A stretch of 64,000 bases of DNA from Flavobacteriales bacterium. Its GTDB lineage: Bacteria; Bacteroidota; Bacteroidia; Flavobacteriales_F; PHOS-HE28. Positions 1,319 to 50,583 of the stretch are shown piece by piece. The position numbers and the translations under genes are program-made. The number at the start of each line of letters is the position of its first letter. Position 1 is the first letter of the stretch. The notes below the pieces were generated by a model, which did no database searches, was not told the origin of the DNA, and worked only from the letters and a program-made list of their open reading frames with translations. Location: the NCBI GenBank assembly GCA_023382455.1, contig JAHDVX010000016.1, positions 1 through 64,000 of the forward strand, read 5' to 3'.

Positions 1319-3775
1319 ATGCAAACATTCTACACAGGTAGCGCCGTACGGACCGTTGCCGCTTTCCTCCTGTTCCCCTCCATGGGCCTGATGGCCCAAG
1401 CCCCTGTGAACGACCATTGCCAGGATGTGCAACCCGTGGCATTGGCCACCGGGAATTCCGTGGTGTTCACGGGGAACACCACCGGGGCCACCACCGATGG
1501 CGACAACGTGCCCGGATCGGGGCTCGACGGATTCAACAGCCCCGTGGTGTGGCATGCATTCACCACGGACGTTTGCGCCGATATCGCGGTTTCCTTCTGC
1601 GGTTCGGCCACACCGTTCATGACCGATTATTTCTGGAACGCCCTCAGCCTTCAATGCCCGGCGGACCAGCTGCTGGTGAGCTGGGACTACAACAACTCCG
1701 AATGCCCCGACGGACAACCGGTGATCCATTTCAGCGAGGTTGCCGCAGGCACCTATTACTACCCGGTGTGGGCCGACCCCTCGGGGCCGGTTGGTGACTA
1801 CATCATCACCATCTCGGCCGTGGCCTGCGCACCCTCCGGGCCGGCCAACGACCTGTGCGACGGTGCCACACCGCACAACCTGGCCCTCGGCGACACCTTG
1901 GCGATTGCCGGTGACAATACGGGCGCCACCGACTCCGAAGGCCTCGGCTTCCCGACCGTGTGGGAATCCTTCACGCTGGACACCTGCGCCAACGTGACCG
2001 TGGCCTATTGCGGCACTTCGGGCTTCAGCGCGTTCGCACAAGGCCTGTACGCCGATTGCCCGGCCACCTTGGCCGTGACCCCGGCCGCGGCCGACTCGTG
2101 CGAAGACGGCAACCCGCTTCACACCTATACGGATCTGGCTGCCGGCACGTATTGGATCCCGGTGCGCATGGACGCGGACAGCGCAGCCGGTGCTTATGCC
2201 ATCCAGGTGATCGCCACGGCGTGCAATGCCACACCACCCCCCGCCAACGACCTCTGCGACGGTGCCACACCGCACAACCTGGCCCTCGGCGACATCTTGG
2301 CAATTGCCGGTGACAATACGGGCGCCACCGACTCCGAAGGCCTCGGCTTCCCGACCGTGTGGGAATCCTTCACGCTGGACACCTGCGCCAACGTGACCGT
2401 GGCCTATTGCGGCACTTCGGGCTTCAGCGCGTTCGCACAAGGCCTGTACGCCGATTGCCCGGCCACCTTGGCCGTGACCCCGGCCGCGGCCGACTCGTGC
2501 GAAGACGGCAACCCGCTTCACACCTATACGGATCTGGCTGCCGGCACGTATTGGATCCCGGTGCGCATGGACGCGGACAGCGCAGCCGGTGCTTATGCCA
2601 TCCAGGTGATCACATCGGCATGCGGCCCCATGCCTCCGCCAGCCAATGACCTCTGTGCCGATGTCACCCCCGAACCGTTGGCTGCCGGTACCACGCTCAC
2701 CTTCACGGGTACCACGGAAGGTGCCACCGATACCGATGACTATGAACCGGGCTCCGACCTGGAAGGCGAGGCCCCGTCCGTGTGGCATGCCTTCACCACC
2801 AGCGAATGCACCGATGTGACCGTCAGCTACTGCGGCACCACCCCCGCATTCGGAAACGCTTGGATCTTCCTTTCACCCAGCTGCCCGGCCGGCAATGACT
2901 ACCGGGTCGCTGACAGCTTCGACATTGTCACCTGCCCGGACGGAAACATCACCTTGTCCTTCACAGCACTGGCTGCTGGAACCTACTTCCTGCCTGTGAT
3001 GTTCGATGTTGACCAAGCCAATGGCCCCTACACCATTGATGTGACGGCCGCGGCATGCACCGTACCCACCGAGTACTGCATCCCCAACCCGTCCGAAGGC
3101 CCCACGGACGGGGACTTTATCCATACGTTGGTCCTGGAGGACATCAACTACACCGGGGCCAATGACACCAACTACGTGGACAACACGGCCATGACCACCG
3201 ACCTCTCCGTTGGTGGCACCTACTCCATCGCCATTACTTCGGGAGACTATGACGAGGACGTGTATGCTGCCTGGATCGACTACAACAACGACTTCGTGTT
3301 CGACCCCGCGACGGAGAAGTTGGGCGAGTTCACCACGGCCGTCCCCTCGGAGACCCAGAGCATCACCTTCACCGTGCCGGCCGGCACCACGTTGGGCACC
3401 AAGCGCCTGCGCGTGCGCTGCGCCTATGGCGCCACGGACATGGACGCTTGCACGGATTACACCTACGGCGAAACGGAGGACTACTCGGTGGAGATCGTGC
3501 TGGGTACCGGCGTGGCCGGTGCAAACCTGCCCAGCGTCAGCCTGTACCCGAACCCCTCCAACGGCACCTTTACCGTGAATGCCGGAGAGCTCGAGGGGGC
3601 CGTGCAGGTGGAGATCGCCGACATGAGCGGTCGCGTGGTGTACAGCGGCCAGCATTTGCTGCAGGCCGACCAGCCGCTGACCCTGGCCCTGGAGGGCAAG
3701 CTGGCCCAGGGTTCATACCAGCTGCGTCTGGTGGCTGGGCAGGGCATGCGGACCATCCCGATGATGGTCAAGTAA
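1319..3775 (+). CDS. T9SS type A secreted protein with four PPC-like repeats and GEVED domain
   Basis: The protein has 818 residues. An N-terminal signal peptide (about 1-27, ending MAQA) is followed by four beta modules resembling bacterial pre-peptidase C-terminal domains (roughly 30-175, 176-308, 309-441, 442-580). Each has an NDLC-type entry, a WxSF/WHAF strand and a YCGT strand. A GEVED domain (about 583-725) and a type A T9SS sorting domain (about 735-818, SVSLYPNPSNG) follow. Modules 2 and 3 are almost the same sequence, a 399-bp tandem duplication. From module 4 to the stop the gene matches the upstream paralogue closely. The ATG was chosen because it gives a complete signal peptide. 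Probably a cell-surface or secreted adhesin-like protein; no catalytic motif is visible. Confidence 0.85.
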   Translation: MQTFYTGSAVRTVAAFLLFPSMGLMAQAPVNDHCQDVQPVALATGNSVVFTGNTTGATTDGDNVPGSGLDGFNSPVVWHAFTTDVCADIAVSFCGSATPFMTDYFWNALSLQCPADQLLVSWDYNNSECPDGQPVIHFSEVAAGTYYYPVWADPSGPVGDYIITISAVACAPSGPANDLCDGATPHNLALGDTLAIAGDNTGATDSEGLGFPTVWESFTLDTCANVTVAYCGTSGFSAFAQGLYADCPATLAVTPAAADSCEDGNPLHTYTDLAAGTYWIPVRMDADSAAGAYAIQVIATACNATPPPANDLCDGATPHNLALGDILAIAGDNTGATDSEGLGFPTVWESFTLDTCANVTVAYCGTSGFSAFAQGLYADCPATLAVTPAAADSCEDGNPLHTYTDLAAGTYWIPVRMDADSAAGAYAIQVITSACGPMPPPANDLCADVTPEPLAAGTTLTFTGTTEGATDTDDYEPGSDLEGEAPSVWHAFTTSECTDVTVSYCGTTPAFGNAWIFLSPSCPAGNDYRVADSFDIVTCPDGNITLSFTALAAGTYFLPVMFDVDQANGPYTIDVTAAACTVPTEYCIPNPSEGPTDGDFIHTLVLEDINYTGANDTNYVDNTAMTTDLSVGGTYSIAITSGDYDEDVYAAWIDYNNDFVFDPATEKLGEFTTAVPSETQSITFTVPAGTTLGTKRLRVRCAYGATDMDACTDYTYGETEDYSVEIVLGTGVAGANLPSVSLYPNPSNGTFTVNAGELEGAVQVEIADMSGRVVYSGQHLLQADQPLTLALEGKLAQGSYQLRLVAGQGMRTIPMMVK
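1846..2212 (+). repeat. Internal 399-bp-period tandem repeat, copy 1
   Basis: Encodes the second PPC-like module. It aligns without gaps to 2245-2611 (offset 399 bp), with only about three base differences seen by eye, at the CTGTGC/CTCTGC and CACCTTGGCGA/CATCTTGGCAA positions. Confidence 0.9.
2245..2611 (+). repeat. Internal 399-bp-period tandem repeat, copy 2
   Basis: Encodes the third PPC-like module and is nearly identical to 1846-2212. The offset is a whole number of codons (133), so the frame is kept. Confidence 0.9.
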
Positions 3776-3795
3776 GGCCTAACGTTACGATGTGC

Positions 3796-3829
3796 CGAAG
3801 GGGCGCCCACAACCGCGGGCGCCCCTTCG
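3796..3829. terminator. Bidirectional hairpin between convergent genes
   Basis: Thirteen-base perfect arms (3796-3808 and 3817-3829) around an 8-base loop. It lies in the 72-base gap between the stop of the T9SS gene and the stop of the oppositely oriented SDR gene, so it can serve both. Confidence 0.75.
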
Positions 3830-3847
3830 TGCTTTCCATGCGGTGGT

Positions 3848-6291: not shown

Positions 6292-9200
6292 CCAGGTTCA
6301 CGTGGCCGTAGACCGTATGGGCCGGGCCATGCGTCTCCTCGTAATCAATCCGCCATACGTAAGTGCCGATCGGTGAATCCTTGCCGCTATAGGTGCCGTC
6401 CCATCCATCCTCCAAACGGTCGGTGCTGAAGATCAATTGGCCCCAGCGGTTGAAGACCAACAACCGGAATACATCCACGTTATGGGCAAGGGCCCTGAAC
6501 ACGTCGTTCACCTCATCGCCATCGGGCGTGAAGGTGTTCGGCACGAAAAGGCTCCCGCGGAAATACACGGTCACCTGGTCGGTGGCCTTGCATCCGTTGG
6601 CATCGGTGACCTCCACGGTGTAGGTGGTGGTGCTGTCCGGTGTGGCCACGGTGTGCGTACAGGCGGTGCAGGCCAGGTCCGTTGGCGGGGACCAGAGGAA
6701 GGTGCCCGTGCCGAAAGCCGACAGCACCGCGCTTCCGCCCCAATCGATGGTGACGTCCGCCCCGGCGTTCACCACCGGCGGCGGGTGCAGTAAGACCACC
6801 GCCGAGGCCGTGGCCGTGCAGCCCAGGGTGTCGGTCACCGTCACGGTCCATGTGCCGGGCTGTGCGGGCTCCAGCACCAAAGAGTCCCCGGAGGTGCCGG
6901 CAACTCCCCAATCATAGGACACGCCACCGGAAGCATGCAGGGTCAAGGCCTCCCCGGGGCAGACCACGGTATCGGGCCAGGCCCGGGCATCCACTTGGTC
7001 GATGCCCACGAACGCGCTGTCCCACACCGATCCACAAGCGTTGAGCAACAGCACGGTGTACTGCGTGGGCGCCTCGGGCGTTACCACGGTGGACTGCGTG
7101 TCCATGCTGCCGATGCCGGGGCTGCCCTGCCATTGGTACCACGCTGCTGTACCGGCGGTGAGTGTGGCCGATGATCCGGGGCAGATCACCGTGTCGTGCA
7201 AGGCGGGTGCGGGCGGGTTGAGGAACACGTCCACAAAAACGGAATCCTCCACGGTGCATCCTTCCGGTGTGGTGATCGTCACCGTGTAGGTGGTGGGCAC
7301 CGTGGGCGTGGCCAAGGGGTTGGCGGTTTCGGTTGCGGAGAGGGTGGGATCCGGTTCCCAGGCATAGGTGCCGCCACCGCTGGCCGCCAGCAATACGCCG
7401 CTGCCGATGCACGAGGCGGTGTCCACGCCTGCCGAGCCCTGGGGATCAAGCAGGGTGAGGGTCACCGAGGCGGAGTCTGTTCCGCAAAGGCCGGTCACCA
7501 CCACGGAATAGGTGGCCGGGCCGCCGGGTGTGGCCAGCGGATCGGGGCTGGTCGCGTCGCTCAGGCCCGTGGAGGGGCTCCATTGGTAAGCCTCACCGCC
7601 CGATGCGTGGAGCTGGATGCTTCCGCCCGGGCACAGGGGCGGCACCGGATCGATGGCGGCCACGGGCGGGGCCATGCTGGTGATGGTGATCTCCGTGGAA
7701 TCCGTGGCCGTGCAGCCGAAGCTATCGCTCAACACCATGCTCACCGTGAAGGTCCCAGTGTCCGTGTACACGTGTGCCGGCTCGAAGTCCGTGCCTGTGG
7801 TGCCGTCACCGAAGTGCCACAGGTAGGTGTTGCCGCCGGTGCTGGTGTTGATGAACTGGACGGTGTCCGGGATGCAGATCTCCGTGGGGCCCTGGATGGC
7901 GATGGAGGGTACGGCCACGGCCAGCTCGAACTTGAACACGCCGAGGTTGCAGTTGAAGGAGTTGTTGGTGTTGCTCCAGGCGTCCGGCGTGGTGGGAAAA
8001 TCGTCGCTGTTGCCGCAGCCCGCGCACACCGCCTGGTACACGGTCCCATCCTTGTCGAAGCGCGAGGTGCCGCCGTCCACATGCTCGCCGCTGGAGCCGC
8101 CGAAGAAGGTGGCGTAGCTCAGGGAAACCGCATCCGGGTTCAGCAGCATCAGGTAGAAATCGCTGCCGTCCGTGCCGGGCTGGAAGGCATCCGGAGTGAC
8201 GGCCAGGCCATTGGTGGTGCTTGCGGTGGCCTGTGCGTAGTGGTTCACTGCGCCTCCCCAGCCGCTGAAGTAGATCTGCCCGCAATCACTCACCAGGAAG
8301 GCCGATGGCGAAATGTCCTCGTCGCCCTGGCCGTTTCCGATCACCGTGGACCACTCGCTGGAGGAAAGGTCATTGGAGAGCTTGTGGATGAACTGCGAAC
8401 TGCCGGGATTGCTGTACACGCCGGCGGAAACGGGATAGGCGCCGTGGGTCTGGCCCACCACGAACACCTTGTCCGAAAGGTCCACCTGCACGAAATAGCT
8501 CTGGTCGAAGGCGCTGGTGCCGAGGAAGGACGCTGAGAGCCGCTGGGTGAGGCCGGCATTCCAGCGCATCACATACCCGTCGGCCACGCCACCGAAGCTG
8601 CCGTTCATGGGGGTGCCTGCCATGGGCAGGTCCGAGCTGGTGGTGCCGCCGGAGGTGAACACTTGGCCATTGGAGTCGAACTGCACACCGTAACCGCTGT
8701 CTTCGCCCGTGCCTCCGCAATAGGTGCCCTGAAGCGTGGTAAGCGCAGGGTCCATGCGGAACAGGAAGGCATCCTGTAGGCCTCCGCCGAAGGTGGTTTG
8801 CGGCGCATCCGGGCTCACAGGCATGTCGGTGCTTTGGGTGGATGTGCTCACCACGGGCCACTCCTGCGGGTCCAGGGCGATCTCGCCACGGAAATGGTCG
8901 CCGTAGTTATGGGAGAGCGGCAGCACATTGTTCACCCCGTCGTTGCCGCTGCCACCCACATAGGTGCAGGCGATCATGGTCGTGGCATCGGCTGAGAGGT
9001 GGGCCACCGCGATATCGGTGCCGCCCGAATGGCCGTAACCATAGCCGGAGATCAAGCCCGCCCAACCGCCCGAACCGGTGCTGATGGCCGGCCCACCGTT
9101 AAAACCCGTATCGAAAGCGCCCGGCGTCACCGGGAAATCCGGCGATCCCGTGCTGGCCAGCACATACAGTTCATCGTTGCTGTTCACCACCAGGCTGTGC

Positions 9201-16988: not shown

Positions 16989-17023
16989 GGAAGAAGGTGG
17001 TTACCCTTGGGTGATCGGTGATT

Positions 17024-17066
17024 CCGTTCCCGCAGGGGCCCCTTGCAGGTGACCCTGGGGGAACGG
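17024..17066. terminator. Hairpin after the RND operon
   Basis: Fourteen-base arms (17024-17037 and 17053-17066) with one mismatch and a 15-base loop, 35 bases after the RND stop and well before the purF -7 box. No T-run follows. Confidence 0.6.
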
Positions 17067-17123
17067 GAGGTCTTGACAAGCAGATCGTCGCCGGGCAGAA
17101 GGGAAAGCCTCGCCCCACCGCCG

Positions 17124-17131
17124 TACATTTG
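17124..17131 (+). promoter_or_regulatory. -7 box of purF (TACATTTG)
   Basis: A perfect TAnnTTTG, 27 bases before the chosen purF start. No TTG at the normal distance was seen. Confidence 0.6.
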
Positions 17132-17158
17132 CAGCCCGGCATAGTGCCGCGGGCTTTC

Positions 17159-19060
17159 ATGAGCGACGCGATCAAGCACGAGTGCGGCCTGGCCTTCATC
17201 CGCTTGCGGAAGCCGCTGGCCCACTACCAGGAGCGCCACGGCAGCGCCCTCTACGGACTTACCAAGCTGTACCTCCTGATGGAGAAGCAGCACAACCGCG
17301 GGCAGGACGGTGCCGGCGTGGCCACCATCAAGCTGGACCCGCCGCCCGGCACGGCCTTTATCGACCGCGAACGCAGCACGGCCAAGAATGCCATCCCGCT
17401 GATCTTCGGCAAGATCAACCAGGGCATCAGCACCGCCATCGCCAAGCAGCCGGAGGCCGCCACCGATGCGGAACTGCTGAAGCAGGCCGCACCCTTCATG
17501 GGCGAGGTGCTCCTGGGCCACCTGCGCTACGCCACCTTCGGCAAGGACGAGCTGGAGAACTGCCACCCGCGCCGCCGCCTCAGCAACTGGATCACCCGCA
17601 ACCTGGTGGTGGCCGGCAACTTCAACATGACCAACGTGGACGAGCTCTTCAACCTGCTCGTCAGCATCGGCCAGGTGCCCAAGGAGCGCAGCGACACCAT
17701 GACCGTGCTGGAGAAGATCGGGCACTACCTGGACATGGAGAACGAGCGCCTGCGCGCCATCCACCACCAGTTGGGCTACAGCGAGAAGCAGATCACGGCC
17801 ATCATCGAGGAGAAGCTGGACGTGAAGAGCATCCTCCAGCAGAGCGCCATCGACTTCGACGGCGGCTACGCGCTAGCCGGCCTCATCGGCCACGGCGACG
17901 CCTTCGTGCTGCGCGATCCCGCCGGCATCCGCCCGGCGTTCTGGTACGCCGATGAGGATGTGGTGGTGGCTGCCAGCGAACGCCCCGCCATCCAGACCGC
18001 CTTCCGGCTCACCACCGACCAGGTGAACGAGCTGGAGCCGGGCTGCGCCCTGATCGTGAAGAAGGACGGCAGCTACGCCGTGGAGCGCATCCTGGAGCCG
18101 CTGGCCAAGCGCGCCTGCAGCTTCGAGCGCATCTACTTCAGCCGCGGCAGCGATGCCGACGTGTACCGCGAAAGGATTGCCCTGGGCCGATCCGTGTGCC
18201 CCGCCATCCTGGAGGCCATCGACCACGACCTGGAGAACACCGTCTTCTCCTTCATCCCCAATACCGCCGAAGTGGCCGCCTACGGCATGCTGAAGGAACT
18301 GGAGGATGAGCTGGACCGCGTGAAGGAGAAACGCATCCTGGAGCTGGGCCCCAGCCCCGACCCCGCCAAACTGCGCGCCATCCTCGCCCTGCGGCCACGC
18401 CTGGAAAAGGTGGCCATCAAGGACGTGAAGATGCGCACCTTCATCACCAACGACAACGACCGCGACGACCTGGTGGCGCACGTGTACGATATCACCTACG
18501 GCACCGTGCGCGCGGGCAAGGACAACTTGGTGGTGATCGATGACAGCATCGTGCGGGGGACCACCCTGCGCCAGAGCATCCTCAAGATGCTGGATCGCCT
18601 GGAACCGAAGAAGATCGTGGTGGTGAGCAGCGCCCCCCAGATCCGCTATCCCGACGGCTACGGCATCGACATGGCCCGCATGGGCGACCTGGCCGCCTTC
18701 CAAGCCGCCATCTCCCTGCTGAAGGAGACCAAGCAGGACAACATCATCGACGATGTGTACGACCGCTGCCTGGCCATGGTGGGCAAGCCCATCACCGAGC
18801 AGGAGAACGTGGTGAAGGACATCTACCGCCCCTTTACCGCGGAGCAGATCAGCAAGCGCATCGGAGAACTGCTCACCCCGCCGGACATCCAGGCCGAGGT
18901 GCGCATCGTGTTCCAAAGCATCGAGGGCCTCCGCGCCGCCTGCCCCGACCACACCGGCGACTGGTACTTCACCGGTGACTACCCCACGCCCGGCGGCAAC
19001 CGCGTGGTGAACCGCGCCTTCATCAACTGGCGCCAAGGCAAGAAGGAGCGGGCGTATTGA
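17159..19060 (+). CDS. purF: Amidophosphoribosyltransferase, long Bacteroidota form
   Basis: Makes 5-phosphoribosylamine from PRPP and glutamine, the first step of purine synthesis. The start at 17159 gives a short propeptide ending before Cys9 (HECG), the expected N-terminal nucleophile of the class II glutaminase domain after processing. The PRPP-binding loop VIDDSIVRGTT lies near residues 460-470 in the phosphoribosyltransferase domain. At 633 residues it is longer than the classical 470-510, with an insert near 80-120 and an extended C-terminus (FTGDYPTPGGNR); longer forms occur in this phylum. A second, ordinary purF may exist elsewhere. Its last 47 bases are duplicated 2.9 kb downstream, bounding an inserted islet. 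Confidence 0.9.
   Translation: MSDAIKHECGLAFIRLRKPLAHYQERHGSALYGLTKLYLLMEKQHNRGQDGAGVATIKLDPPPGTAFIDRERSTAKNAIPLIFGKINQGISTAIAKQPEAATDAELLKQAAPFMGEVLLGHLRYATFGKDELENCHPRRRLSNWITRNLVVAGNFNMTNVDELFNLLVSIGQVPKERSDTMTVLEKIGHYLDMENERLRAIHHQLGYSEKQITAIIEEKLDVKSILQQSAIDFDGGYALAGLIGHGDAFVLRDPAGIRPAFWYADEDVVVAASERPAIQTAFRLTTDQVNELEPGCALIVKKDGSYAVERILEPLAKRACSFERIYFSRGSDADVYRERIALGRSVCPAILEAIDHDLENTVFSFIPNTAEVAAYGMLKELEDELDRVKEKRILELGPSPDPAKLRAILALRPRLEKVAIKDVKMRTFITNDNDRDDLVAHVYDITYGTVRAGKDNLVVIDDSIVRGTTLRQSILKMLDRLEPKKIVVVSSAPQIRYPDGYGIDMARMGDLAAFQAAISLLKETKQDNIIDDVYDRCLAMVGKPITEQENVVKDIYRPFTAEQISKRIGELLTPPDIQAEVRIVFQSIEGLRAACPDHTGDWYFTGDYPTPGGNRVVNRAFINWRQGKKERAY
19014..19060 (+). repeat. 47-bp direct repeat, left copy (3' end of purF)
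   Basis: The last 47 bases of purF including its TGA. They match 21932-21978 with one difference (CCAAGGC against CCAGGGC). The resemblance ends at the stop codon on one side and abruptly on the other, as at an integration site. Confidence 0.9.
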
Positions 19061-19119
19061 GGCTGGCCCTTCCGTCGATTTCCCGCATTGGCCATGCACC
19101 GTTACATGCTTGGCCTCCC

Positions 19120-20070
19120 TCACTTGTTCCGCTCGTAGAAGAAGCCGATCAGGACCTCCTGCCGGAACTGCATTTTGTAGTTGAGCAACGGGTTGTAGGC
19201 TAAGCGCGTGTCGAAGCGCAGTTGCAGGTACTTCCACAGCTTCACCACCACCATGTTGCTGAACTGCAGGTTTACGTGGTCGCGGTCCAGGCCGTTGCCG
19301 AAGAAGCGTGAATTGTTGACCCACTGCACGTGCCCGCCGAACTGCTTGTTGATGGCCGTGGCGATGGAGAAGCCGTAATTCATGAAGTAGTAGGCTTTTT
19401 TGCCTTCGATTACGTTGGCATCCGCGTATGCCGTTGATGTGAGTTCTTTGGGCGAACTACTGATTTGCACGGTGGCAAAGGCAAAGTTGATGCTGCTGCG
19501 GCCCCAAAAGGTGAATACTCCGCCATAGCCCAATTGGAGGGTGAAGGGATTGAGGAAACCGCCTACGGAGTGGTCCACTAATTTATCCTGCTCGATGTCA
19601 TACGCCGCAAAGCTGGCGGGCAGGAACTGGGTGCCGAAGGCCACGGTGTAGGAGCTGTTGAACTTGCGGCCGGTGTTGTTCCACAGCAGGTTCACCTGAA
19701 GGCGGTCCAGGCTCTTCACCCAAGTGCTGTCCACGAATTTCTGGTAGCCTAGGTCTGCCATGGCTTGATGGGAATGACTGTGCGTGGTGGCGAAGCGGTT
19801 ATGGTTGTACAGGAGGTTGCCTTGCAGGGCGAAATTCCGCAGGTCCTGCCCGTTCCAGTTGTCACTGGCGGCGTAGCTGGCGCTGAGGGAGCCATAGAGG
19901 GAGGAGGTGATGAAGGCCGAGTTTCGTACTGGGGCTATGGAGGTATCACCCTCAGTCTGCAACGTATCCAAGGCCACTACAGCATCTTCAGGCAATTGCG
20001 CAACACCGGGAGTAAGGATCGAAAAGAAAAGCGCGAGACCGGCATGCATCCGTCTCGCACTTTTCTTCAT
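19120..20070 (-). CDS. DUF3078 family protein (intact islet copy)
   Basis: The product has 316 residues from the ATG at 20070, which gives a good signal peptide (MKKSARRMHAG...GVAQ); an upstream in-frame ATG at 20106 would add 12 residues. The mature part is rich in alternating beta strands and aromatic residues (SLYGSLSASYAASDNWNG, LRFDTRLAYNPLLNYKMQFRQEVLIGFFYE), fitting an outer-membrane beta-barrel-like fold. The family is common in Bacteroidota and of unknown function. It lies 40 bases after the membrane-protein gene, probably in one transcript. A paralogue with about three quarters identical residues lies at 25566-26528 but carries two stop codons. Confidence 0.85.
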   Translation of the reverse strand: MKKSARRMHAGLALFFSILTPGVAQLPEDAVVALDTLQTEGDTSIAPVRNSAFITSSLYGSLSASYAASDNWNGQDLRNFALQGNLLYNHNRFATTHSHSHQAMADLGYQKFVDSTWVKSLDRLQVNLLWNNTGRKFNSSYTVAFGTQFLPASFAAYDIEQDKLVDHSVGGFLNPFTLQLGYGGVFTFWGRSSINFAFATVQISSSPKELTSTAYADANVIEGKKAYYFMNYGFSIATAINKQFGGHVQWVNNSRFFGNGLDRDHVNLQFSNMVVVKLWKYLQLRFDTRLAYNPLLNYKMQFRQEVLIGFFYERNK

Positions 20071-20110
20071 CGGTGTAATCCTATGGGGTACAGACACCCT
20101 GTTCAAATGT

Positions 20111-20728
20111 TCATGCGAAAAGCCAGGGCCTCGGCTTTGTTAATCGTTCGTCCTTCTTTGGATGAGCACGCAGGAGTCCCAAGATTGCCAGCGTGCTGCC
20201 GATCAGGATTATTGCCGTGTGGGGCCAGTGAGTGAACACGACGGTCCATGAGATCACCCAAAAGCGGGAAGTGTTCATCGCGTATGCAGCAATGTGATCC
20301 ATGGAACACGCCATGCTCCACATAAAGAGAAGCGCCATGATTGCCATGGAAATCCACCCGAATTTTGGCGATCGTAGTGTAGCCTCTCGCAGGAATGCAC
20401 AAATGAGTTCGATGCCCACGATGCCGAACACGACCGGTATCATCCACTCAAACGTCAGCGGGCGTTCTACGAGCACCGACGACAACAGTATGAGTACCCC
20501 CAGTAGCTTGGATCGTTTCATCTCCGACCATTCGATAACCGCAAACTGCCTCAGGGGGGAGGTCGAATCAGGAGATGGGTCGTAACCACCGCCTTTTCGA
20601 ATCCGGATGGTTTCGAGTCCAAGGAGAATGACAGCAATGGCATCCAGCACGGATGTTCCACCCGAGACCAAGACCGACACGTTTGCCATAAGGAGGAGAA
20701 CGAACCACGGTATCGAGGAAATCACCAT
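20111..20728 (-). CDS. Polytopic membrane protein of unknown function
   Basis: A 205-residue hydrophobic protein with about five or six membrane segments: near residues 5-24, 27-40, 74-88, 93-112, 124-144 and 156-182. A short basic tail (AHPKKDERLTKPRP) follows. I recognise no family. Base composition is lower in GC than the flanking housekeeping genes, which fits recent acquisition. It lies between a secreted protein gene (103 bases upstream) and DUF3078 (downstream), all on the minus strand. An immunity or partner role for the secreted protein is possible but unproven. Confidence 0.7.
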   Translation of the reverse strand: MVISSIPWFVLLLMANVSVLVSGGTSVLDAIAVILLGLETIRIRKGGGYDPSPDSTSPLRQFAVIEWSEMKRSKLLGVLILLSSVLVERPLTFEWMIPVVFGIVGIELICAFLREATLRSPKFGWISMAIMALLFMWSMACSMDHIAAYAMNTSRFWVISWTVVFTHWPHTAIILIGSTLAILGLLRAHPKKDERLTKPRPWLFA

Positions 20729-20831
20729 TTTCAGTTGGGGTTTGTCAGTGTTGCCCGTAAATGCCCGGGAGTTGCATTATTTATGGAACGCTTGGCCTGT
20801 TGGCACGATTCCAATATAGAGTCCGGAGGAC

Positions 20832-21416
20832 CTAGAAGCAGTCATTTGCCCAAAGGTCCACACACATGGATGCCATACCAAGGGCAAATCCAACCGGACC
20901 GAGGCCTATTGTGCCGCCAACGGTGGAAATTACTCCTTGAACCACTGCTCTGCTGCATTGTACGTTGCCTCCAACGCCAACATACTGGTAGTCAATGAGG
21001 CGACCATTGTTGGAGGTAAAGGTGAATTGCAGAGCACCAGTAACATCGAAGACCTTTGTTGCAAAAGTGTTTGCACTTCCCGGCACTTCCGTCACTTCAA
21101 AGACCAACGCCTTCCCCGACCCCCGCTTGGACGCATAACCGACCGATCGTGTTATGTTCGCCGTACTCGTTTGTATCATGGCAAATCCCTTGATGTCGGC
21201 ACCCTGGGTACATTCCTGAAAATCTCCTCCGGGGAGAGGTGCGAGGCGACCAAAATCCTTCGTTGACCACTTGGCCGGCAGATCGGACCTCATGAACTCT
21301 TGGTAGGCTGAAGACGAACCTGGGGAGGAAGGAACGCACGTCTTGGTGCCTTGACCATTGCTGGTCAAAGGAATAATGGCGATAGACAGCGCAGCGAGTG
21401 TGGGAATCAACTTCAT
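20832..21416 (-). CDS. Secreted cysteine-containing protein with glycine-rich C-terminus
   Basis: A 194-residue protein with a clear signal peptide (about 1-22, MKLIPTLAALSIAIIPLTSNGQ). The mature chain has five cysteines (residues 27, 68, about 155, 183 and 193), suggesting disulfides. The last 40 residues form a hydrophobic, glycine-spaced stretch (GGTIGLGPVGFALGMAS) ending in two cysteines. No known domain is recognised. The glycine-zipper-like end resembles membrane-inserting peptides in general character only. Low GC, and divergent from the XRE regulator gene. Confidence 0.7.
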   Translation of the reverse strand: MKLIPTLAALSIAIIPLTSNGQGTKTCVPSSPGSSSAYQEFMRSDLPAKWSTKDFGRLAPLPGGDFQECTQGADIKGFAMIQTSTANITRSVGYASKRGSGKALVFEVTEVPGSANTFATKVFDVTGALQFTFTSNNGRLIDYQYVGVGGNVQCSRAVVQGVISTVGGTIGLGPVGFALGMASMCVDLWANDCF

Positions 21417-21486
21417 TTATTGGGGTTTTAGCGCCCCCCTTCATTGGGTGGCACCGCAAACCTGTGTACATCCTGTGAAAAACCTC

Positions 21487-21521
21487 TCCGGAGGTTCCGG
21501 AACTTTTCCGGAAATTCCGGA
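21487..21521. promoter_or_regulatory. Phased operator array: four TCCGGA palindromes
   Basis: TCCGGA occurs at 21487, 21496, 21507 and 21516. These form two 15-base units TCCGGAnnTTCCGGA (21487-21501 and 21507-21521) exactly 20 bases apart, about two helical turns. The array abuts the -7 box of the XRE gene, so binding there would repress it and could also affect the divergent secreted-protein gene. Confidence 0.7.
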
Positions 21522-21529
21522 TAGGTTTG
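21522..21529 (+). promoter_or_regulatory. -7 box of the XRE regulator gene (TAGGTTTG)
   Basis: A perfect TAnnTTTG directly after the TCCGGA array and 17 bases before the chosen ATG. The region where a -33 element would lie is occupied by the palindromes. Confidence 0.65.
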
Positions 21530-21546
21530 GCCAAACCCCTCTATCC

Positions 21547-21915
21547 ATGGAAGACCCATTCATGATCGGAAAGAAACTCAAGTATTTACGGGAGGAACGC
21601 AAGTATACACAGGAAGGCGTGGCCATTGAACTGGGTGTGGCCTCCAGCACCTACAGCGATTACGAACGCGGCGTGATGAACGTGCCAGCAGCCGTGGTGG
21701 TGAAGGCTGCGGAGTACTACAACAAGGACCTCAGCTATTTCTACAGCCAACGCGGCCCGGTGAGCATCACGATGCACGACCAAGCCTCCAATGGCTATGT
21801 GGAGCAACAGCACGCGGTGGACAGTGGAGTCATGGAGCGGCTCGTGGCCCGCTACGAGGCCATGAACCAGCGGCTGCTCGGCCTGCTTGAGCGTTGGGGC
21901 ATGAAAGAACAATAG
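21547..21915 (+). CDS. XRE-family helix-turn-helix regulator
   Basis: The product has 122 residues from the ATG at 21547; the ATG at 21562 (MIGKKLKYL) is also possible. The Cro/CI-type HTH spans about residues 6-62 (IGKKLKYLREERKYTQEGVA, LGVASSTYSDYERG). The C-terminal half is predicted helical (VMERLVARYEAMNQRLLGLLERW) and probably dimerises. Longer in-frame starts run through the operator array and are unlikely. Placed beside the secreted-protein gene and behind a palindrome array, it is probably the local autorepressor of the islet. After its TAG stop, the same frame runs on through the duplicated purF tail. Confidence 0.88.
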   Translation: MEDPFMIGKKLKYLREERKYTQEGVAIELGVASSTYSDYERGVMNVPAAVVVKAAEYYNKDLSYFYSQRGPVSITMHDQASNGYVEQQHAVDSGVMERLVARYEAMNQRLLGLLERWGMKEQ

Positions 21916-21931
21916 GAGCCTGACCGGCCCA

Positions 21932-21978
21932 GCGCCTTCATCAACTGGCGCCAGGGCAAGAAGGAGCGGGCGTATTGA
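21932..21978 (+). repeat. 47-bp direct repeat, right copy (purF tail)
   Basis: A second copy of the last 47 bases of purF including the TGA, differing at one base, and not attached to a purF gene. It probably marks where purF ended before the islet was inserted. Confidence 0.9.
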
Positions 21979-21997: not shown

Positions 21998-23065
21998 TCA
22001 GCGCAACGCCTCCACCAGCTGCTCCACGTCCTGTTCGTTGTTGTAGAAGTGGATGCCCAGGCGGATGCCCGCACCGCGCAGTTGGGCCTGCACGCCCGCT
22101 TGGCGCATGCGGTCCAGCCGCTGCTGGCCGCCCTCGATCATCAGGATGCCCGTGCGGTGGGCGGGTTCCCGGCCGTTGAGCACGCGCACCCCGGCGCGGT
22201 CCAGTCCCGCCACGGCCCGGTCGCAGAGCCGTTGCACCCGTTCCGCCACCGCCCCGATGCCGATATGCTCCGCACGGGCCAGTGCATCCTCCAAGCGTAC
22301 CAAGGCCATGGGATCCTGGTGGCCGACCGTGAGCGCGGGCACCACCTCTGCCCCATGCCGGTCGAGCAGGTCATCCCGCACTTCCGAGGAAAGATGCAGG
22401 AAGCCATTGCCGAAACCCGCCAAGGGCCATTTGTAACCGCTGGCCGCCAGGATGTCGATGGGCGTGCTGCGCAGGTCCACGGGCACGCTGCACCAGCTCT
22501 GCGTAATGTCCACCACGGACCAGGCGCCGTGTGCGCGGCACAGCGCGGCCAGGGCATCCAGGTCCGTGAGGAAACCGGTGGACCATTGCACGTGGCTGAT
22601 GGCCACCAACTGTGGCTTCTCCTTGGCCATGGCGGCTTCCAAGGCCTCCAAGCGGATGGTGCCGTCCGGATCGGGCTCCACCTCCACCACCCCGAACCCG
22701 TGCAGCTTGAACGGGCCGTGGAGCGTGGGATAATCGCCGCCCACCAACAGCACTTTGGGGCGATGCCGCAGCAGGGGCGCCAGCTGCATCAGCCCAACGG
22801 TGAAGCTCTGCACCAGGGCCAGGCCCGCCGCTTCGCCGCCGATGTGGGCCGCCACGGCGCTGGTGATCGCCGCCTTGCCCTGAGCGTGCCAGTAGTCGTA
22901 GCGCGCCGATCCCTGCTCCTGGAACAGGCGCATTTCCTCCGCGGCCCGTTCCGTGGTGGAGCGCGCCATCAGGCCCGTGGAGGAAGTGTCCACGTATGTT
23001 CCCCGCACCAGGCCCGGGTATTCCGCGCGAAGTACCTTCCAATCAGTTGAAGTTGCGTTGCCCAT
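21998..23065 (-). CDS. Class V aminotransferase-fold PLP enzyme
   Basis: The product has 355 residues from the ATG at 23065 (MGNATSTDW); a GACATTTG box sits 4 bases upstream, supporting this start over the longer one. It has the fold type I class V pattern: N-terminal TYVDTSSTGLM, the cofactor Asp in SVVDITQSW, and the Schiff-base lysine in AASGYKWPLAGFGNG. Relatives include cysteine desulfurase-like, kynureninase-like and isopenicillin-epimerase-like enzymes; the exact reaction cannot be assigned. It is convergent to the islet and next to the GH3-like gene on the same strand. Confidence 0.85.
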   Translation of the reverse strand: MGNATSTDWKVLRAEYPGLVRGTYVDTSSTGLMARSTTERAAEEMRLFQEQGSARYDYWHAQGKAAITSAVAAHIGGEAAGLALVQSFTVGLMQLAPLLRHRPKVLLVGGDYPTLHGPFKLHGFGVVEVEPDPDGTIRLEALEAAMAKEKPQLVAISHVQWSTGFLTDLDALAALCRAHGAWSVVDITQSWCSVPVDLRSTPIDILAASGYKWPLAGFGNGFLHLSSEVRDDLLDRHGAEVVPALTVGHQDPMALVRLEDALARAEHIGIGAVAERVQRLCDRAVAGLDRAGVRVLNGREPAHRTGILMIEGGQQRLDRMRQAGVQAQLRGAGIRLGIHFYNNEQDVEQLVEALR

Positions 23066-23095
23066 GCAACAAATGTCGGGCACACAACCGCTGCA

Positions 23096-25565: not shown

Positions 25566-26528
25566 TCACTTTTTCCGCTCGTAGAAGAATCCGATCAAGG
25601 CCTCTTGGCGGAACTGGATCTTGTAGTTCAGCAGCGGGTTGTAGGCCAGGCGCGTATCAAAGCGGAGTTGCAGGTACTTCCACAGTTTCACGATTACCAT
25701 GTTGCTGAACTGCAGGTTCACGTGGTCGCGGTCCAGGCCGTTGCCGAAGAAGCGTGAGTTGTTCACCCACTCCACATGCTTGCCGAACTCCTTATTGATG
25801 GCCGTGGAGAAGGAAAAGCCGTAGTTCAGGAAGTAGTACGCCTTTTTACCTTCGATCACATCGGTCTTCACCGATGAGGGAGCAGTGAACTCCTTGGGTG
25901 AACTGTTGAACTGGACCGCGGCAAAGGCGAAGTTGATGTTGCTGCGGCCGCAAAAGGTGTATACGCCACCATAGCCGAGTTGAAGGTTGAAAGGATTTAG
26001 GAAGCCGCCCACGGAGCGGGCCACCAATTTGTCCTACTCAAGGTCATACTCCGGGAAGCTGGCGGGCAGGAATTGCGTGCCTAGGGTCACCGTGTAAGAG
26101 GTTTTGAATTTGCGGCCTGTGTTGTTCCAAAGTAGGTTCACCTGTAGGTTGTCAATGCTCTTCTCCCATGTGCTGTCCACGAACTTCAGGTAGCCCAGGT
26201 CGGCCATCACTTGGTGCGAGTGGCCATGGCTGTCGGTGAAGAGATTGTGGGTGTAGAGGAGGTCGCCCTGTAGGGCGAAGTTCCGCAGGTCTTACCCGTT
26301 CCAGTTGTCGCTAGTAGCGTAGCTGGCGCTGAGGGAGCCGTAGAGGGAAGTGTAGGTGAAGGGAACAGAGCTGTTTGTGCGAAGGTCATCCCCCGCTGGG
26401 TGGTCGGTTGCCCGAACCGTGTCTCCTTGCTCCAAGTGTGTGGATGCTGAATCCTGCTGTGCATGCAGCGCAGCAGGAAAAGTCGCGGTGGCAAAGAAGA
26501 GCAACAGCCATCCGCTCCGGCATGCCAT
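25566..26528 (-). pseudogene. DUF3078 paralogue with two in-frame stop codons
   Basis: The reading frame of the DUF3078 family runs from a signal peptide (MACRSGWLLLFF...LHAQ) to the family end (ALIGFFYERKK) without any frameshift. It is interrupted by TAA at 26292-26294 and TAG at 26034-26036. Both stops replace Gln codons of the intact copy at 19120-20070 (NWNG-Gln-DLRN and DIE-Gln-DKLV). I translated the intervening 85 codons and they align closely with that copy. It could be a recent pseudogene, a sequencing or assembly error, or (least likely) read through. Pieces alone could still be made from TTG at 26027. Confidence 0.85.
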
Positions 26529-50539: not shown

Positions 50540-50583
50540 AAACGCGAAAGGCCGCCGGTGATCACCGGCGGCCTTTCGCGTTT
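50540..50583. terminator. 44-base perfect inverted repeat, bidirectional terminator
   Basis: Perfect palindrome centred on GATC with A-rich and T-rich ends (AAACGCGAAAGGCC ... GGCCTTTCGCGTTT), between the convergent lipoprotein and PfkB-kinase genes. The strongest terminator in the window. Confidence 0.9.

Follow-up and report, generated by a model that had tools for sequence, protein, structure and literature searches.

The 3' end of purF in this Flavobacteriales genome carries an inserted 2.9-kb islet of accessory genes, closed at its far side by a second copy of the purF tail, and the same anatomy recurs, singly and in arrays, at the ends of many unrelated genes in this genome and its relatives. 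In this anatomy, the stop codon of a host gene is directly followed by a module, beyond which the last 28 to ~150 bp of that gene appear once more, again with a stop codon. No integrase was found near purF among the matches listed. We infer homologous recombination through the tails as the route of transfer; the purF islet may well belong to a large set of gene-tail-bounded cassettes that spread in this way, a reading that we hold tentatively and stop just short of calling probable.

The islet lies in a window of 64,000 nucleotides, the whole stretch of DNA analyzed, from a genome of 3.43 Mb (G000). A first-pass annotation of this DNA had reported that the last 47 bases of purF occur twice with one mismatch. 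On re-measurement the direct repeat was identical at 46/47 positions, with a spacing of 2918 and the stop codon included. Allowing up to three mismatches, we found no third copy of the 47-mer in the 3.43-Mb genome, and its next best match in the window was 26/47. The second copy lies outside any purF gene, as had been claimed, and its upstream neighbor is the XRE gene. A degraded second purF gene had been named as a possible source of this orphan tail; this was not borne out, as the genome holds no second purF gene, and empty sites exist too. The lower GC noted for the islet was reproduced (0.544 between the tail copies versus 0.669 and 0.661 in the flanks). All four cargo genes that had been described were recovered (Table 1), with a weak DUF3078 assignment (Pfam E 2e-4, under Pfam's own cut-off) and no Pfam match for the 194-aa secreted protein. 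No integrase, transposase, or recombinase was present among the islet genes, in line with the earlier remark that the islet has no integrase of its own. The names purF, sucD, and acyl-CoA carboxylase are our readings of the sequences.

Table 1. Features at the purF insertion point (window coordinates)
Feature	Position	Strand	Remarks
purF (amidophosphoribosyltransferase-like), host gene	17159..19060	+	ORF 17018-19060; PRPP motif VVIDDSIVRGTT read from sequence
In-gene copy of 47-bp purF tail	19014..19060	+	Ends at TGA
Islet	19061..21931		GC 0.544
DUF3078-like outer-membrane/secreted protein	19120..20106	-	85% identical in G017, same site
Membrane protein, 205 aa	20111..20728	-	44% identical in G017
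Secreted protein, 194 aa	20832..21416	-	57% identical in G017
Candidate XRE operator	21487..21524		TTCCGGAA..TTCCGGAA.TTCCGGAT, kept in G017 and G043
XRE regulator, 122 aa	21547..21915	+	HTH_3, E 7e-12; divergent from cargo, last gene before orphan tail
Orphan purF tail	21932..21978	+	46/47 identical, ends at own TGA
Class V aminotransferase	21998..23083	-	Follows orphan tail; 59%-identical relative directly after purF in G005, G031

Between the XRE gene and its divergent neighbor, the promoter region contains palindromic TTCCGGAA repeats; the XRE genes downstream of the conserved repeats are 89% (G017) and 62% (G043) identical to that of the islet. The repeats at 21487-21524 are likely the XRE operator. 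Elsewhere in the window, a second DUF3078 paralogue, apparently broken, occupies 25566-26528 and matches the islet copy over 797 bp (82% nucleotide identity). The stretch around it is low in GC and separates M23 peptidase and GAF genes that adjoin each other in G019; this stretch is probably another islet. The first 3832 bases of the window contain the direct repeats 1-1149 / 2685-3832 (86%) and 1841-2271 / 2240-2670 (95%), and perfect inverted palindromes occur at 50540-50583 (44 bp) and 1113-1146 (34 bp).

Can the islet be shown to be an insertion? Among 44 congeneric genomes, 42 have a purF orthologue. Two of these, G005 and G031, have a class V aminotransferase gene 25 and ~58 bp past the last purF codon, and three others (G019, G028, and G003) have a GH3-family gene 15-21 bp past purF. 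In these relatives purF runs straight into a neighboring gene, which identifies the islet as DNA inserted at the purF 3' end, and the empty sites that the first-pass annotation had proposed to look for do exist. The purF-to-GH3 interval differs in gene content among G000, G017, G005, and G019 and contains no mobility genes. In the sister species G017, all four islet genes recur at this site, followed by a HEPN/MNT remnant and AraC and phospholipase genes, with no orphan purF tail. Also seen in G017 (L033) were an orphan 202-bp DUF3078 tail beside purF (1272-1473) and a 54-bp remnant of an aminotransferase tail (9087-9140). Within the genus, extra purF tails occur only in G000 and G023. On contig C109 of G023, two purF tails flank a HEPN/MNT pair away from that genome's own purF (L052:10850-11743), adjoining YgjP-like and HsdR genes; the left tail is identical to that of G017 over 69 bp, and the right tail is closest to other species.

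Two more islets of this build came to light through relatives of the XRE gene; in each, a host gene end is followed by reversed secreted-protein genes, an XRE gene, and a duplicated host tail. The host is an aminotransferase gene (AT5) in G012, with a tail repeat of 73 bp (82%), and a NifU-like gene in G019, with a tail repeat of ~105 bp (88%). Empty sites were found in G022 for the former and in G031 and G000 for the latter, and the orphan AT5 tail of G012 is about equally distant from all species. The XRE gene was rejected as a required part of such cassettes because HEPN/MNT and other cassettes lack it. In G024 and G041 (L162:9644-9880, L161), an orphan Mrr-like C-terminal tail of ~68 codons comes after an XRE gene, and the 29 kb upstream in G024 contained no second copy of this tail.

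When contig C1 of G000 was scanned for direct repeats, two tails of the GDP-fucose synthase gene (fcl) emerged with a HEPN/MNT toxin-antitoxin pair between them. A genus-wide HepT search returned 30 loci, 27 of them long enough for a repeat test, and bracketing repeats of 28-121 bp were found at 14/27 of these versus 1/108 control loci (Fisher p 7e-11). The sole control positive was a 60-bp exact repeat around a glycosyltransferase-like gene in G020 (L109:1345-1404 / 2946-3005). Of the HEPN-bracketing repeats, most come from gene 3' tails, two correspond to the 5' end of a DUF1801-like gene, and three are ambiguous or doubtful. Empty sites exist at fcl as well, with a repeated tail in only 3/30 loci. 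At the class level, 7 loci were flagged and 3 set aside because their repeats were unlike gene tails; the four with gene tails belong to other families and involve arginase-family, asparaginyl-tRNA-synthetase-like, and 2-phosphosulpholactate phosphatase genes and, with a shorter and weaker repeat, a biotin-ligase-like gene. Tandem arrays with multiple tails, in which a tail separates the modules, were seen at fcl in G032 and G003 and at a methyltransferase-like gene in G000, and some islets of 0.7 kb are packed with just two genes. HEPN proteins group in part by target at fcl (G000, G003, G032), DUF1801 (G002, G037), and ISGIAV (G002, G037), and close HEPN relatives also occupy differing sites (an AraC-like gene in G025, GH3 in G041, and another site in G003). 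Related cassettes are homologous in their genes alone, and neither a shared motif nor inverted repeats were seen at their ends.

A census covering 1.27 Mb (37%) of G000 yielded six tail-bounded islets, those of purF, GDP-fucose synthase, lptD (138-bp tail; two T9SS-type secreted proteins), ribonucleotide reductase (104 bp; MarR and thioredoxin-like genes), sucD (72 bp; a Sel1 protein), and acyl-CoA carboxylase (~150 bp, diverged; a 77-aa protein and RhuM). The islet at the methyltransferase-like gene, with three tails and HEPN/MNT cargo, was found via HEPN and was left out of this unbiased count. Inspection by eye removed two further candidates, C4:151909 (tandem paralogues) and C4:7858, that were judged to be paralogues or internal repeats. 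At ribonucleotide reductase, the orphan tail forms an in-frame fusion with an apparently truncated secreted islet protein (L405:5774-6310; G000 C2:145774-146310). Overall, the cargo of the cassettes comprises HEPN/MNT, PIN or DUF5615 toxin-antitoxin-like pairs, T9SS-secreted or surface proteins, XRE, RhuM, Sel1, and MarR.

Comparison of the two tail copies in 18 pairs showed a stop codon at the end of both copies in 18/18 and an end of identity falling between -6 and +7 nt from the end of the stop. Because the pairs were picked as recognized gene tails, the presence of stop codons partly reflects how they were chosen; this does not apply to the tight end of identity, nor to the stop codons that differ between copies in 5/18 pairs. 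The copies differ in a coding-like manner (N 52.5/766, S 54.5/230, ratio ~0.29, with one mis-framed row removed), and framed tail pairs contained no internal stops. For the orphan fcl tail of G003, 63/66 positions agree with G019 and 62/66 with G031, versus 56/66 with the fcl gene of G003 itself. Other pairs are near identical (arginase, 62/62; sucD, 71/72; purF, 46/47). As to whether the second copy is a target duplication, then, copies are near identical in some pairs and differ in their stop codons and by coding-like divergence in others; the near-identical pairs, such as arginase and purF, discriminate neither way, and the sample is mixed. Judged by these patterns, the tail copies resemble two alleles of a single gene end, and the bringing together of two alleles would fit better than a duplicate made upon insertion and left to decay.

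If cassettes spread through their tails, one tail allele would travel with the cassette and the other would be resident in the recipient. Cassettes would pass between relatives as DNA with the tails as homology arms, so that a dedicated recombinase would not be needed. RecA-type recombination between the tails could excise the cassette as a circle with one tail, and tail recombination could insert it additively beside whichever allele of the gene is present, and the host gene would stay intact. Toxin-antitoxin addiction or useful surface genes may maintain the cassette after its arrival. The presence of related HEPN cassettes at different genes shows that new genes are reached, for which tail homology alone is insufficient; arrival at a new gene would be a rare illegitimate event, most likely of the kind known as insertion with long target duplication. 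Against this reading, the newest pairs (arginase, sucD, and purF) are equally compatible with a fresh target duplication, recombination over 28-60 bp would be inefficient, and G017 has the cargo without an orphan purF tail.

The occurrence of related cassettes at different genes, together with tails at arginase, sucD, and purF that match fully or almost fully, also speaks for a dedicated machinery acting in trans, a transposase or recombinase that would insert at gene ends and produce a long target duplication of variable length at each site. The differing stop codons of five pairs and the coding-like divergence argue against such a machinery, as do the G003 orphan tail, which is nearer to other species than to its own gene, and the lack of conserved cassette ends; we regard it as unlikely, if worth serious consideration. 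Could each islet instead stem from a single import? Homology-facilitated illegitimate recombination could build an islet as a relative's DNA enters by natural transformation, one end crossing over homologously within the host gene and the other joining the recipient's gene tail illegitimately. No recombinase would be needed, and the tails could resemble alleles of different lineages; the process is on record in competent bacteria (PMC3240628). Such imports predict junctions anywhere in the host gene, whereas the tails seen are all short (28 to ~150 bp), and they leave the start of the cassette at the stop codon unexplained. We think this origin rather improbable.

The first-pass annotation had ascribed the islet to integrase-type insertion at the purF 3' end. 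The empty sites bear out the insertion; the integrase mechanism did not hold up. In a search of 45 genomes confined to Phage_integrase (PF00589), no match near purF was among those listed, and the nearest listed match on the purF contig of G000 is 57 kb off. A search for integrases beside the tail copies had also been suggested; at purF itself, the PF00589 matches listed for the genus include none close to the gene on any contig that carries it. One trait of integrase-type islands is present, in that the host 3' end is restored and a second copy stands at the far end; another is missing, as related elements have no attachment site in common (XRE cassettes at purF, AT5, and nifU, and HEPN cassettes too). 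The reading of the repeat as an attachment site fell with the finding of the same anatomy at many unrelated genes, with unrelated tail sequences, so that no single attachment site explains the anatomy. Carriage by a phage was rejected because no viral contig had the purF tail pattern or an XRE relative. Decayed elements, that is, prophages or integrative elements in gene 3' ends that later lost their integrase, would account for the classical signature of a restored host gene with an alternate 3' end and an orphan tail, and the divergence of the tails suits an element-borne copy. Such elements are hard to reconcile with the lack of a listed PF00589 match near purF, with many unrelated target genes in one genome, with 0.7-kb islets of just two genes, and with viral contigs that match neither the tail nor the XRE gene, and we doubt that they are the source. 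An assembly artefact or chance repeat is scarcely credible: the genomes are mostly metagenome assemblies, but cases occur within assemblies of 4 contigs (G003) and 9 contigs (G041), the islet is conserved in the sister species G017, and controls gave only 1/108.

Accessory genes, toxin-antitoxin pairs above all, often move without a visible mobile element, and an anatomy that recurs with no apparent recombinase points to a little-studied route of movement for small gene sets. The signature of host tail, module, and second tail, both tails with stops, can be scanned for in any genome and is recurrent in one, which makes the mechanism testable. Returning to spread through the tails, we raise as a possibility, and no firmer than that, that Bacteroidota have a general, undescribed cassette system in which any gene 3' end serves as an attachment site and in which toxin-antitoxin or surface modules carry an allele of the host tail, shuttle between relatives, and array after essential genes with no recombinase of their own. 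In the literature searched, in which subscription journals were missing, we found no published description of gene-tail-bounded toxin-antitoxin or surface-protein cassettes, a negative that is therefore weak evidence of absence.

Integrative elements are known in the 3' ends of protein genes, such as e14 and phage 21 at icd and the islands at guaA. Like these, the tail-bounded cassettes leave the host 3' end full and place a second tail at the far side; unlike them, they have no integrase or shared attachment sequence, use many targets, and are much smaller. The minimal mobile element of Neisseria comprises alternative genes between conserved genes, has no mobility genes, and spreads by homologous recombination. 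The purF-GH3 interval resembles it in variable content between conserved genes and in lacking mobility genes; the tail duplication that bounds the cassettes is not known to belong to that concept. Integron cassette arrays are similar as tandem small modules, often toxin-antitoxin, with a repeated separator, which here is the coding tail of the host gene, and no integrase match is listed near purF. The maf cassettes of Neisseria, which are C-terminal toxin cassettes, were set aside as a different thing (PMC4287609).

The closest precedent is insertion with long target duplication, described for restriction-modification genes (Nobusato et al. 2000; Furuta et al. 2010; via PMC3874152, PMC3031569). 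As summarized in these citing papers, such cases came from genome comparison and have direct repeats of ~100 bp and variable length with no transposase, and tandem amplification between the repeats has been proposed (PMC3874152, PMC3031569). To the extent that the citing papers describe them, they differ from our cassettes in several respects: the cassettes carry toxin-antitoxin-like pairs, XRE and secreted-protein genes, Sel1, and MarR and no restriction-modification system; their repeats are mostly gene 3' ends up to the stop; their tails often differ like alleles, with different stop codons; and they form arrays of different modules, with many cases per genome. What the two share is a small addictive gene set between variable repeats (here 28 to ~150 bp) with no transposase, and the cassettes likewise have empty sites in relatives, as seen at purF, AT5, nifU, and fcl.
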